64,000 nt of DNA, from NCBI RefSeq assembly GCF_900129725.1, contig NZ_FQWQ01000003.1, positions 1,108,091 to 1,172,090 on the forward strand, given 5' to 3'. Under the pieces are notes generated by a model. It did not search any database, was not told the DNA's origin, and worked only from the letters and a program-made list of their open reading frames with translations. Both the position numbers and the translations under genes were made by a program. The DNA comes from Chryseolinea serpens (GTDB lineage: Bacteria; Bacteroidota; Bacteroidia; Cytophagales; Cyclobacteriaceae). Below, piece after piece: positions 27,836 to 38,797 of this stretch (position 1 is its first letter; the number at the start of each line of letters is the position of its first letter).

Positions 27836-29041
27836 ATGAACAAACTCTTACAAGCCAGGATCGCCACTTTCACTGCGGCGAAGGAAGCCCGTGAAAGGGG
27901 CATCTATCCTTACTTTCGACCCATCTCGTCCGCGCAGGACACCGAGGTGATCATTGAGGGCAAACGCGTGCTCATGTTCGGTTCAAATTCCTACCTGGGA
28001 TTGACCAACCACCCACGCATCAAAGAGGCTGCCCAAAAGGCAATCGAAAAGTATGGCACCGGATGCGCCGGCTCCCGCTTTCTCAACGGCACACTCGACA
28101 TACACATCGAGTTGGAAGACCGCATTGCTGCGTTCACCGGTAAGCCCGCTGCCCTCATTTTCAGCACCGGCTTTCAAGTGAACCTCGGCGTGATGTCGAG
28201 CCTGACCGGGCGCAACGACTATTTGATCCTGGACGAATACGATCATGCCTCCATCTACGACGGCACACGCCTGTCGTTTTCGCGCGTGATCAAATATGGC
28301 CACAACGACATGAACGACCTGGCCCGCCGGCTCAGCATGCTGCCCGAAGAAGCGATCAAACTCATCGTGGTCGACGGCATTTTCAGCATGGAAGGCGACC
28401 TGGCCAAGCTTCCCGAGATTGTGACGCTGGCTGAACAATACGGCGCCACCGTGGTGGTGGACGATGCTCATAGCCTCGGCGTGATCGGCGACAAAGGCGC
28501 CGGCACCGCTTCACACTTCAAACTCGACGACAAAGTAGATATCATCACGGGCACGTTCAGCAAATCGCTCGCTTCCCTCGGCGGCTTCGTAGCCTCCGAC
28601 CGCGACACGATCGACTATCTGAAACACCAGGCCCGCTCGCTCATTTTCAGCGCCAGCATGACGCCGTCTTCCGCCGCCAGCGTGCTGGCCGCGCTCGACA
28701 TCCTGGAGACCGAGCCCGAGCACATGGAGCAATTGTGGAACAACACGCGTTATGCCATGCACCTTCTCAAAGAGGAAGGCTTCGACATCGGCGACACGGA
28801 AAGTCCCATCATTCCCATCTATGTGCGCGACAACGAGAAAACCTTTATTGTCACCAGCATGCTGCAACAGCAAGGGGTGTTTGTGAACCCGGTGGTTTCG
28901 CCCGCCGTGCCTTCGCATGCGTCGCTGCTTCGCTTCTCGCTGATGGCCACGCACACCTTCAGCCAGATCGAAGAGGCGGTAGAGAAACTTGCTTATACAT
29001 TTAAGCAGGTAGGAGTACTGAAAATTAAAGAACGCATTTAA
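27836..29041 (+). CDS. spt: Serine palmitoyltransferase-like alpha-oxoamine synthase
   Basis: A 401-residue PLP enzyme from ATG 27836. It belongs to the family that condenses an amino acid with an acyl-CoA: the PLP lysine is K243 in [13 protein letters not shown], with [15 protein letters not shown] upstream contributing the cofactor Asp and His. Related members are KBL (glycine), AONS (alanine) and SPT (serine, giving 3-ketosphinganine). SPT is favoured because [12 protein letters not shown] matches bacterial SPTs and because the next two genes look like ceramide synthase and ceramide reductase. It heads the operon, and its TAA stop shares one base with the next ATG. Confidence 0.85.
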
Positions 29042-30162
29042 TGAAGCGTGTAGAGCCCGTCACCACCAAAGCCCAACTTGAAGCATTTATCGATTTCCCG
29101 CATGATCTCTATAAGGATGATCCTTGCTATGTGCCCGAGTTGTTCATCGCGCAGCGCGACCTGCTGACCCCCGGCAAGCATCCGTTCCACGAGCACTCGC
29201 CGGTACAGCTTTTTTTGGCGTACGACAAAGACAAAGTGGTGGGACGCATCGCGGCCATTCTCAACAAGAATCACAACACGTTCAATAAAACCGAGGACGG
29301 ATTCTTCGGATTTTTTGATGCCGTGAACGATGGCGAGATCAACGCCTTGTTGTTTCAACAAGCCGAACAATGGCTGCGCGACAAGGGCGCCAGGACCATC
29401 ATCGGACCCGCTAACTTTTCAACAAACGAAACCTGCGGCCTGCTCATCGCCGGCTTCGATACACCGCCGTTTGCCATGATGACCTACAACAAGGAATACT
29501 ACGAATCCCTGTTGAACCAGATCGGCTTCCGCAAGAAGGTGGACCTCATTGCCTATCGCTTTGGCGAAGACGGCTACGACGACAAATCGGTGCGCGTAAA
29601 GAAGGCGTTGCTGGATCGCCTGCAGTCAAAGGGCATCACGATTCGGCCCGTCATCAAAAAGAATTTCGAACACGAAGTCGCCCGCATTCGCGAGGTCTAC
29701 AACTCGGCCTGGGACCGCAACCTCGGCTTTGTGCCGATGACGGAAAAAGAATTTGACTACCTGGCCAAGGACATGAAAATGATCCTGGACACCGACTTCT
29801 GCCTGGTGGCCGAAAAGGACGGGAAAGCGATCGGCTTTGCGCTGGCCATTCCCGATATCAACCAATTGCTCATCAACATCAAGCGCGGTCGGTTGCTGCC
29901 CTTCGGATTGTTCAAGCTCCTGTTTGGCTTGAAGAAGATCAACGGCATCCGCGTCATCGCCCTGGGGGTGATGGAGGGCTACCGCAAGCTGGGGATAGAA
30001 GCGTGTTTTTATGGCACCATCATCGAAGCCTATCGCCGCAAGAAATTCAAGCGTGCGGAAGCTTCGTGGATATTGGAAGACAACGATCTCATGAATAATG
30101 CCTTGCTGCATGTGAAGGGCGTGCCCCACAAGCGCTACAGGATCTTCGAGAAAGCGATATGA
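29041..30162 (+). CDS. GNAT-superfamily protein, candidate bacterial ceramide synthase
   Basis: A 373-residue protein with two GNAT-like halves: an N-terminal part with VQLFLAYDKDKVVGRIAAIL and a C-terminal part with DFCLVAEKDGKAIGFALAIP and GVMEGYRKLGIEACFYGTII, the latter resembling an acyl-CoA-binding turn (R-K-L-G-I). A GNAT-fold protein acts as ceramide synthase in Caulobacter, acylating 3-ketosphinganine, and Bacteroidota encode large GNAT proteins of this kind near SPT. The translational coupling to spt (TAATG) and the 4-base overlap with the reductase gene make the same role likely here. Its function has to be called candidate because the residues that decide chain length or substrate are not known to me. 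Confidence 0.65.
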   Translation: MKRVEPVTTKAQLEAFIDFPHDLYKDDPCYVPELFIAQRDLLTPGKHPFHEHSPVQLFLAYDKDKVVGRIAAILNKNHNTFNKTEDGFFGFFDAVNDGEINALLFQQAEQWLRDKGARTIIGPANFSTNETCGLLIAGFDTPPFAMMTYNKEYYESLLNQIGFRKKVDLIAYRFGEDGYDDKSVRVKKALLDRLQSKGITIRPVIKKNFEHEVARIREVYNSAWDRNLGFVPMTEKEFDYLAKDMKMILDTDFCLVAEKDGKAIGFALAIPDINQLLINIKRGRLLPFGLFKLLFGLKKINGIRVIALGVMEGYRKLGIEACFYGTIIEAYRRKKFKRAEASWILEDNDLMNNALLHVKGVPHKRYRIFEKAI

Positions 30163-37239: not shown

Positions 37240-37857
37240 ATGAAGAAACCATTTGTTTCCAATTCAACAGAATCGTCGCGCATGTTCAAGAGCGACTTCC
37301 TGGAGCGGTTTTCTGTGGTCCACTACAGTGTGCCGCTGATCGTTTTTATTCCCGTCATTTTATATTTCATCTACAGCGCCTTGTTTGTCTGGCACAATAG
37401 CATCCTCACGTTCGTGGCCTGCGGCCTGGGCGGCCTCTTGTTTTGGACGCTCACGGAATATGTGATGCACCGGTTTATTTTTCATTTCGTACCCAAGTCG
37501 AAATGGGGCCAGCGTCTGCACTTTATTTTTCACGGCGTTCACCACGACTACCCCAACGACGCTTTGCGGTTGGTCCTGCCCCCGTCGGTAAGCATTCCCC
37601 TGGCCACCGGTTTCTATTTTGTTTTCCGGGCTGTTTTGCCGCCGGATTGGGTTTCGGCCTCCTTCGCCCTGTTCATTGCCGGATATCTTTTCTATGATAT
37701 TTCGCATTATGCCCTCCATCATGCTACCTTTAAAAGCCCATTTTGGAAAAAGCTCAAACACCACCACATGCAGCATCACTACAGCGATGCCACCAAGGGC
37801 TACGGTGTGAGCTCCGCCCTTTGGGATAAAATATTCAGATCGGATTTTGAAAAATAA
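37240..37857 (+). CDS. Fatty-acid hydroxylase/sterol-desaturase-family di-iron membrane protein
   Basis: A 205-residue membrane protein with the histidine clusters of the fatty acid hydroxylase superfamily: H77-x4-H82 (HRFIFH), H98-x2-HH102 (HGVHHDYP), H156-x3-HH161 (HYALHH) and HHHMQHHY (174-181). They bind a di-iron centre that hydroxylates or desaturates lipid chains with O2. The spacing resembles the FA2H/Scs7 enzymes that 2-hydroxylate the N-acyl chain of ceramide, fitting the operon. No cytochrome b5 domain is attached, so an external electron donor is needed. The stop codon overlaps the next gene by 11 bases. Confidence 0.82.
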   Translation: MKKPFVSNSTESSRMFKSDFLERFSVVHYSVPLIVFIPVILYFIYSALFVWHNSILTFVACGLGGLLFWTLTEYVMHRFIFHFVPKSKWGQRLHFIFHGVHHDYPNDALRLVLPPSVSIPLATGFYFVFRAVLPPDWVSASFALFIAGYLFYDISHYALHHATFKSPFWKKLKHHHMQHHYSDATKGYGVSSALWDKIFRSDFEK

Positions 37858-38797
37858 CCTGGATTACCCGGCGGCTGAGGCAACGAAACCCTTTGGACGT
37901 TACCTGGCCACCGCTTTGCTGGTGTCGGCCGCCTATGTGTTGCTCTCCGCCCTGCTCATCGGCTTCAAGTCCGATCAGTTGGTGCTGGCGGGTATCTTTA
38001 CGGCCCTGTATGTATCGACACCCATCACCCGGAAATTTATCTTAGGCTTTTCGATCTTCATCGTCTTCTGGGTCATTTTCGACTACATGAAGGCCTTCCC
38101 CAACTATTGGTTCAACGAAGTGCACATTGGAAGCCTCTATAATGCCGAGGCGCGCCTGTTTGGCATCCACACCGCCGAAGGAGTGCTGACTCCCAACGAA
38201 TATTTTCAACGCCACAGCATCGTGCTAGCCGACGTGCTGGCAGGTCTGTTTTATTTATGCTGGATCCCGGTGCCACTAGGATTTGCCGCCTACTTATTTT
38301 TCCGGGACCGCCGCAGCTTCCTCTACTTCTCGCTCACATTTTTGCTGACCAACCTCATCGGCTTCGTCATCTATTATCTCTACCCGGCCGCACCGCCATG
38401 GTACGTACAGGAATACGGCCTTGATTTTATCGCCGGCACCCGCGGCAACACCGCCGGCCTCATCCGCTTCGACCACTTCTTTAACATCACCATCTTCCAA
38501 TCCCTTTACACCAAGGGCTCCAACGTCTTCGCTGCCATGCCGTCACTGCATTCGGCTTATCCATTGCTGGTGCTATATCACTCCTGGAGAAACAATATGG
38601 GTTTTATGAAGATCGTCTTCGGCATGATCACAGTGGGTATTTGGTTTGCCGCGGTCTATACGAGTCACCACTACGTTTTAGATGTGCTGGCTGGCATCGC
38701 GGTGGCTACGACGGGGATCATTCTTTTTCAAACGCTGGTGGCGAAAAGTAAGCGATTCGCGCGGTTTGTGGAGGGGTATGTTGGGATGATTTCTTAG
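37847..38797 (+). CDS. AUR1-like PAP2-superfamily protein, candidate inositol-phosphorylceramide synthase
   Basis: A 316-residue membrane protein from TTG 37847. Around eight hydrophobic segments carry the PAP2/AUR1 motifs: PAAPPWY (180-186), MPSLHSAYP (231-239, catalytic H235) and TSHHYVLDVLAG (272-283, H275 and D279). The Pro-rich first motif and the HHY-x2-D pattern match the inositolphosphotransferase group (AUR1/IPT1) better than simple PAP2 phosphatases. That enzyme moves phosphoinositol from phosphatidylinositol to ceramide. As the last gene of an operon that makes ceramide and phosphatidylinositol, it is the natural candidate for the final step. Its stop codon abuts repeat site B. Confidence 0.75.
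   Translation: MKNNLDYPAAEATKPFGRYLATALLVSAAYVLLSALLIGFKSDQLVLAGIFTALYVSTPITRKFILGFSIFIVFWVIFDYMKAFPNYWFNEVHIGSLYNAEARLFGIHTAEGVLTPNEYFQRHSIVLADVLAGLFYLCWIPVPLGFAAYLFFRDRRSFLYFSLTFLLTNLIGFVIYYLYPAAPPWYVQEYGLDFIAGTRGNTAGLIRFDHFFNITIFQSLYTKGSNVFAAMPSLHSAYPLLVLYHSWRNNMGFMKIVFGMITVGIWFAAVYTSHHYVLDVLAGIAVATTGIILFQTLVAKSKRFARFVEGYVGMIS

Follow-up and report, generated by a model that had tools for sequence, protein, structure and literature searches.

An eleven-gene run of Chryseolinea serpens with a predicted role in hydroxylated inositol sphingolipid synthesis

The window analysed here is a 64,000-nucleotide stretch of the genome of Chryseolinea serpens (Bacteroidota; 8.36 Mb; contig NZ_FQWQ01000003.1, positions 1,108,091 to 1,172,090 of the forward strand). 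Positions 27836-38797 of its plus strand hold eleven open reading frames (ORFs) on one strand, each with the domain expected of it in Pfam or NCBIfam. We concluded that these genes most likely (probability about 0.8) form a single cluster whose products would lead from serine and an acyl thioester to 2-hydroxylated inositol-phosphorylceramide (IPC), together with envelope proteins. A first-pass annotation of the DNA had proposed such an operon, and the proposal is supported by the matches of serine palmitoyltransferase (SPT), Ino1, phosphatidylinositol-phosphate synthase (PIPS), a fatty-acid hydroxylase, and an AUR1-like protein to characterised enzymes, from which we infer the pathway. As a kind of system, the run is well supported as the inositol sphingolipid cluster known from Bacteroides, here apparently enlarged by ceramide synthesis, a likely 2-hydroxylase, and candidate delivery proteins.

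The eleven genes are probably transcribed as one unit, possibly under control of a TetR-family regulator. SPT would form 3-ketosphinganine, which the GNAT protein would N-acylate and the SDR would then reduce to dihydroceramide; the order of these two steps is presumed. The SCS7-like enzyme would hydroxylate C-2 of the acyl chain. Ino1 would supply inositol phosphate, PIPS would join it to CDP-diacylglycerol, and the PgpA-type phosphatase would dephosphorylate the product to phosphatidylinositol (PI), from which the AUR1-like enzyme would transfer phosphoinositol to the ceramide, presumably on the periplasmic side. Three further products, GtrA, the probably exported DUF4833 domain, and the predicted barrel of DUF5686, may aid lipid flipping, handling, or delivery to the outer membrane. 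The genes, and one neighbour, are as follows.

27836..29041, +, serine palmitoyltransferase (SPT), first committed step (NF047600)
29041..30162, +, GNAT-fold acyltransferase, candidate bacterial ceramide synthase for N-acylation (PF00583)
30159..31145, +, extended SDR, candidate CerR-type reductase, Y142/K146 (PF01370)
31182..32507, +, myo-inositol-1-phosphate synthase, Ino1/MIPS (PF07994, PF01658)
32514..32963, +, PgpA-type phosphatase, candidate PIP-DAG phosphatase, BT_1525-like (PF04608, 134 bits)
33023..33349, +, GtrA-type small membrane protein, BT_1524-like (PF04138)
33372..35912, +, DUF5686 protein, predicted Omp85-like outer-membrane barrel (PF18939, PF13715)
35887..36663, +, PIPS, a CDP-alcohol transferase, BT_1523-like (NF052561)
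36679..37236, +, DUF4833 protein, predicted all-beta, probably exported (PF16117)
37240..37857, +, FA2H/SCS7-like di-metal fatty-acid hydroxylase (PF04116)
37847..38797, +, AUR1-like PAP2 transferase, candidate IPC synthase (PF14378)
39720..40379, -, TetR-family gene, candidate regulator, outside the run (PF00440)

Ceramide and head-group enzymes

The SPT protein scored 736.7 bits with NF047600, above the curated cut-off of 640. It matched the SPT structures 3a2b and 8guh with 596 bits and the cysteate acyltransferase 28eh with 241 bits, and on this difference an assignment as a sulfonolipid (cysteate) enzyme was rejected. For neither the GNAT protein nor the SDR did an NCBIfam equivalog reach its cut-off, and no convincing relative of the GNAT protein was found in the PDB (best E 0.8). 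Their candidate roles as ceramide synthase and ceramide reductase were assigned by linkage to SPT, using 296 Bacteroidota genomes with 150 SPT, 150 GNAT, and 105 SDR matches listed. SPT above cut-off occurred in 11 of the 296 genomes; eight of these 11 carried a close GNAT homologue (at least 57% identity), which adjoined SPT in all eight. Among the matches listed, 122 genomes had both GNAT and an SPT-family gene; in 96 of them the two were no more than 500 bases apart, always on the same strand (96/96), as expected of a bacterial ceramide synthase (bCerS). For the SDR, 73 genomes had both genes among the matches listed; an SPT-family gene was found no more than 500 bases away in 33 of them, on opposite strands in all 33, and no more than 2 kb away in 41, on the same strand in 7. 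Where SPT was above cut-off and an SDR was listed, the SDR was found within 2 kb in seven of nine genomes and on the same strand in all seven. This linkage supports the roles of ceramide synthase and reductase.

An extended SDR with a YxxxK motif near SPT, the arrangement expected of CerR, is present in this operon and at 65 of 80 related loci (the set is described below). The first-pass annotation had named a YGKSK motif; Y142 and K146 are conserved in 97-98% of 65 sequences. A hydrophobic segment was looked for in the SDR and none was found. A TSC10/BT_0972-type reductase was rejected for this gene: in Pfam its product fitted the extended Epimerase family best, and the eight families matched did not include adh_short. 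The first-pass annotation had held that its proposal would fall if the GNAT, SDR, and PAP2 proteins grouped phylogenetically with unrelated sugar or phosphatase enzymes. This did not apply to the GNAT protein, given its position beside SPT-family genes in the 96 of 122 genomes among the matches listed, or to the PAP2 protein, which matches AUR1. At one locus (L156, genome G338), SPT-GNAT-SDR is followed by a different CDP-alcohol transferase and GtrA, so that the ceramide genes are joined to another head-group pair.

Ino1 aligned with the Bacteroides thetaiotaomicron MIPS structure 7nwr (561 bits) and is the only match to PF01658 in the C. serpens genome. PIPS scored 401.8 bits with NF052561, above the curated cut-off of 350. 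The AUR1-like protein matched yeast AUR1 (9ivc) with an E value of 2e-13, and its PAP2 His/His/Asp residues (H235, H275, D279), previously singled out in the first-pass annotation, align with those of AUR1, and 99-100% of 77 sequences retain them. Ino1, PgpA, PIPS, and AUR1-like genes thus stand together on one strand, as in the Bacteroides-type inositol phosphoceramide cluster. Ino1 is absent from the run at 20 of the 80 loci, four of which (L105, L115, L134, and L138) are on cut contigs. Among the other 16, 12 genomes carry a clearly different Ino1 elsewhere (positive controls were recovered in 4/4), and the head group is therefore usually expected to be inositol. This second type of Ino1 scored 84-87 bits, compared to 112-117 for the operon type, in open frames of 400-440 aa. 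The divergent genes outside the operon were seen in the genomes of L087, L088, L090, L104, L107, L109, L110, L111, L116, L125, L127, and L133.

Residues 18-200 of the hydroxylase align with yeast SCS7 (E 6.7e-34 with 4zr0 and 3.2e-34 with 4zr1), with 72 of 180 aligned residues identical (40%). Di-metal histidine clusters of the FA2H/SCS7 type are present, and 13 histidines are invariant across 70 sequences. PF04116 spans several reactions, and no NCBIfam model matched the protein; the enzyme might therefore hydroxylate C-4 of the sphingoid base, as SUR2 does, or a free fatty acid destined for other lipids, so that the product would not be a 2-hydroxy-acyl ceramide. We regard this as unlikely given the 40% identity to SCS7, the 12 histidines common to both, and a shared RLV-PP segment, in a comparison that SUR2 lay outside. 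In addition, the available text of PMC10002949 describes working 2-hydroxylases among the FA2H-like enzymes of myxobacteria. Hydroxylation of the acyl chain at C-2 is accordingly kept as the preferred assignment.

Several observations weigh against the proposed pathway as a whole. Most SPT-family matches that enter the count of 96 of 122 genomes score about 473-526 bits, under the cut-off of 640, so that some of them may be other enzymes. The AUR1-like protein reaches 330.9 bits with NF052609 (phosphoinositol dihydroceramide synthase), under the curated cut-off of 480, and was therefore named AUR1-like and not a member of that equivalog family. In four of the 16 genomes whose operon is without Ino1, no Ino1 was found elsewhere either. 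The one-contig genome G249 (L039) keeps PgpA, GtrA, DUF5686, a fused PIPS-DUF4833 gene, and AUR1 in this order, yet it gave no Ino1 match; its SPT-family scores did not exceed 289 bits, and neither GNAT (at 1e-60) nor SDR (at 1e-50) was found. In G033, SPT, Ino1, and AUR1 are present, with no DUF4833 or DUF5686 match and no hydroxylase found beside the cluster. In six of the 19 genomes (among the 296) that carry DUF4833, no lipid gene adjoined it among the genes probed. Finally, the loci used for conservation were picked by PIPS similarity, which favours those nearest to the PIPS of the window.

In view of the AUR1-like score and of G249, where the head-group half stands without SPT above cut-off and without Ino1, the AUR1-like enzyme might act on a different lipid, for example a diacylglycerol-based one or a sulfonolipid, and transfer phosphoinositol or another polar group to it; the ceramide genes would then be mere neighbours. 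We consider this quite improbable. SPT is present at 69 of the 80 loci, several of the remaining ones being cut contigs, and the window's SPT is clearly nearer to SPT than to cysteate acyltransferase. Moreover, deletion of the homologue BT_1522 abolished phosphoinositol dihydroceramide in B. thetaiotaomicron, as stated in the accessible part of PMC9246714. Transfer of phosphoinositol to a ceramide thus remains the function that we favour for the AUR1-like enzyme.

Gene layout and conservation

All eleven same-strand genes and the domains that the first-pass annotation had named for them were found. With starts at ATG, GTG, or TTG, the junctions in gene order measure -1, -4, 36, 6, 59, 22, -26, 15, 3, and -11 bases. 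The earlier statement that no gap exceeds 36 bases thus holds at nine junctions and fails between PgpA and GtrA, where the canonical start leaves 59 bases. No ATG, GTG, or TTG was found before 33023, and the frame 5' of this position runs on through ATC and ATA codons and resembles the N-termini of relatives; in a close relative (L074), the GtrA ATG sits 10 bases past PgpA. The true GtrA start therefore probably lies upstream of 33023 at a non-canonical codon. Within 32963-33023, an ATC or ATA may start GtrA, or the protein may be shortened. The run is bordered by 388 free bases on its 5' side, where a CRTAC-like ORF stops at 27447, and by 922 free bases on its 3' side, up to the opposite-strand TetR ORF from 39720. 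Promoter and terminator scans returned 11 and 16 sites, compared to shuffle means of 9.0 and 14.6.

A scan of named genomes anchored on PIPS covered one genome per species (84,980 species) and confirmed at least 537 relatives among at least 596 pattern matches. Among the matches listed, the best named one was Chryseolinea lacunae (Fulvivirgaceae, Cytophagales), with PIPS, SPT, and Ino1 88%, 91%, and 95% identical, respectively. Conservation was assessed on the best 80 of the at least 537 loci by PIPS similarity. Matches were found at 80 of these loci for PIPS, 79 for DUF5686, 78 for AUR1, 72 each for DUF4833 and the hydroxylase, 69 for SPT, 66 for PgpA, 65 for SDR, 63 for GNAT, 62 for GtrA, and 60 for Ino1; these counts are lower bounds since several contigs are cut. 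All eleven genes were present at 33 loci, and the gene order was violated at none of the 80, so that a chance neighbourhood was rejected. The genome-neighbourhood comparison that the first-pass annotation had suggested therefore revealed a widespread layout, carried by genera that include Chryseolinea, Dawidia, Pedobacter, Mucilaginibacter, Pontibacter, Dyadobacter, Segetibacter, and Taibaiella. Two contigs titled Azovibrio (L086) and Beijerinckiaceae (L117) also carry this Bacteroidota operon, and the L117 genome was grouped with the window's class, which suggests that both assemblies are mislabelled or mis-binned.

The 296 genomes sample the phylum as a whole; nine of them, C. serpens included, contain a strong AUR1-like gene (E <= 4e-93), and none of seven other members of the C. 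serpens family does, indicating that the operon is patchily distributed. Weak matches (E <= 1e-3) occurred in 35 more genomes; one match in all lay above the curated cut-off. In the eight other genomes with a strong AUR1-like gene, SPT and GNAT were found in the same 20 kb in five and not in three (G230, G033, and G249).

Envelope proteins and flanking genes

The structure model of the DUF5686 protein (pLDDT 78.8, pTM 0.65) has an N-terminal signal helix or hydrophobic segment, a CarboxypepD_reg domain, a long-stranded periplasmic beta domain, and a barrel. Among the best 50 of 122 Foldseek matches at E <= 0.001, the best were BamA, TamA, and Sam50, with E values from 1.4e-8; the superpositions are weak (7-11% identity, rmsd 6-14 Angstrom). 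An Omp85-like outer-membrane barrel is predicted with moderate confidence.

DUF4833 is fused in frame behind PIPS at 41 of 70 loci by ORF length and at 39 of 65 by a shared ORF, as well as in G249. A hydrophobic segment precedes the fused domain in 40 of the 41 fusions (hydropathy maxima 1.65-2.56; the 41st, L153, lay outside the measurement) and looks like an internal signal peptide. The 29 separate DUF4833 proteins have hydropathy maxima of 1.3-2.4 within their first 40 residues. That of the window stays under the 1.6 threshold with a 19-residue window, and export of DUF4833 is for this reason likely rather than proven. The DUF4833 model is almost all beta (pLDDT 90.9), and of 878 Foldseek matches with E <= 10, not one reached E <= 0.001. 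DUF4833 was found in 19 of the 296 genomes, in six of them within the inositol sphingolipid operon and in one (G190) within an alternative type of cluster. In six others it belongs to an operon of SDR, PhyH dioxygenase, CDP-alcohol transferase, GtrA, and DUF4833. This operon, which is without AUR1, was seen at L064, L065, L067, L069, L070, and L071, grouped by Pfam on L069 and by BLAST for the other five.

DUF4833 and DUF5686 might constitute a dedicated delivery route for the inositol sphingolipid, an idea that we put forward tentatively and hold to be doubtful. PIPS would make the PI donor at the inner membrane, where its exported DUF4833 domain would either stay attached or be released, and DUF5686 would insert the lipid, once complete, into the outer membrane. 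We give a somewhat better, though still less than even, chance to a different explanation, by which DUF5686, DUF4833, and GtrA are envelope passengers or aids of glycan or protein assembly that do not handle sphingolipids. Omp85-like folds can insert proteins, and the DUF5686 family is wider than the operon: the C. serpens genome has two further homologues (32% and 23%), and G049 and G206, both without SPT above cut-off, have homologues at 29-33%. Deletion of BT_1524 (GtrA) left inositol lipids unchanged by thin-layer chromatography in the portion of PMC9246714 available, a further point against a role in the pathway, whereas liquid chromatography-mass spectrometry of the mutant showed lower IPC and more PI in that of PMC8791184. 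Against the passenger explanation also stand the presence of DUF5686 at 79 and of DUF4833 at 72 of the 80 loci, and the situation in G190, where both remain with the ceramide genes though the head-group enzymes are replaced by an alternative cluster.

SusC, SusD, and CRTAC-like ORFs, read by eye from the window, lie 5' of the operon; the TetR gene and genes for a Cache/GAF protein and a Porin_O_P protein lie 3' of it. A homologue of the TetR gene (39720-40379) occurs near the operon at 38 of the 80 loci, upstream at 22 and downstream at 16, with varying side and strand, mostly within 1 kb and at about 3.3-3.5 kb in three loci. As a control at the same loci, SusC-type genes were found at 13 and SusD-type genes at five, four other flank genes only at L074, and one at none, with upstream coverage limited to about 2 kb from SPT for most loci. 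The TetR gene possibly regulates the operon; TetR genes are common, and the 38 loci may include chance neighbours. Upstream of SPT, 27700-27740 contains CTTTTGGACC and then AACGAAATCGTT, with a dyad, AACGA-AA-TCGTT after CTTTT(A/G)GACC or a close variant of this. The dyad was seen in the window and in most of seven close relatives and not in the wider set, and its reading as a shared operator is not established.

Relation to known sphingolipid pathways

The closest known counterpart is BT_1526-1522 of B. thetaiotaomicron, where Ino1, PgpA, GtrA, PIPS, and AUR1 follow each other in the same order as here, and the same chemistry is expected. Its SPT (BT_0870) is located elsewhere in the genome, whereas here SPT and the ceramide genes are joined to the inositol cluster. 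BT_1522-1526 were tested by deletions in Heaver 2022 (PMC9246714) and Sartorio 2022 (PMC8791184), and in the accessible text of both papers SPT is not joined to the cluster; the former also places a carboxypeptidase-regulatory-like gene (BT_1527 homologue) near the Bacteroides inositol cluster. At L032 (G230), a locus of Bacteroides type as judged from its genes, no SPT, GNAT, SDR, hydroxylase, or DUF4833 was found within 20 kb; SPT and a 37% DUF5686 homologue are on other contigs of this genome.

In B. vulgatus and Prevotella, an alternative inositol cluster is made up of an NTP transferase, a CDP-alcohol transferase, and a HAD protein (PMC9246714, available text). A similar cluster in G190 is joined to SPT, GNAT, SDR, DUF5686, and DUF4833; it differs from the operon in its head-group enzymes, in a PfkB kinase gene, and in having no Ino1 match. 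At this locus (L061, 9521-19901), GNAT, SDR, and DUF5686 are followed by the NTP transferase, a 289 aa protein without Pfam match, the CDP-alcohol transferase, an LPG-synthase-like protein, the HAD protein, the PfkB kinase, and DUF4833. Since no Ino1 match was found in the genome, inositol is perhaps salvaged by the PfkB kinase.

In Caulobacter, the ceramide genes spt, cerS, and cerR (CC_1162, CC_1154, and CC_1164), for SPT, an N-acyltransferase, and a dehydrogenase, share a region with head-group genes, as here (PMC11324152, in the part available). Neither an acyl-ACP synthetase nor an ACP belongs to the eleven genes, and the Caulobacter head group is of the phosphoglycerate type, unlike the inositol expected here. 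Caulobacter CerR is periplasmic according to the accessible text of PMC11087976, whereas no hydrophobic segment was detected in the SDR. LptC2/F2/G2 and a potential flippase have been proposed for transport in Caulobacter, and none of these is among the eleven genes; in 2024, the authors of PMC11087976, as far as its available text goes, had not yet identified sphingolipid flippases or transporters. For Bacteroidota, a Black Sea study (PMC11334938, 2024), citing another paper, states in its available part that the Spt, bCerS, and CerR genes are not closely encoded. This does not hold for the present loci, as SPT, GNAT, and SDR lie close together there.

Fungi also make inositol sphingolipids, and the yeast IPC pathway involves LCB1/2, SCS7, INO1, and AUR1. 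The operon has an SPT and, with their catalytic residues, counterparts homologous to INO1, SCS7, and AUR1. Yeast uses a LAG1-type synthase and TSC10, whereas the operon has a GNAT protein and an extended SDR, and PI is here expected to arise via phosphatidylinositol-phosphate. Sphingobacterium spiritivorum reportedly contains ceramide phosphoinositols both with and without a 2-hydroxy acyl chain.

A literature search, with most subscription journals outside its coverage, found no mention of DUF4833 or DUF5686, and in the titles and abstracts of the papers listed we recognised no description of a joined ceramide-inositol operon. New in the present analysis are the DUF4833-PIPS fusion, the barrel prediction for DUF5686, and the TetR gene near 38 of the 80 operons. 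If the tentative delivery route is true, DUF4833 and DUF5686 would be an unrelated counterpart of the sphingolipid transport by LptC2/F2/G2 proposed in Caulobacter. Taken together, these genes would form, in part of the Bacteroidota, a full set for making an inositol sphingolipid of eukaryote-like type, and candidates can be named for a ceramide synthase, a reductase, a 2-hydroxylase, and a regulator of this phylum and, above all, for the transport of sphingolipids to the outer membrane.

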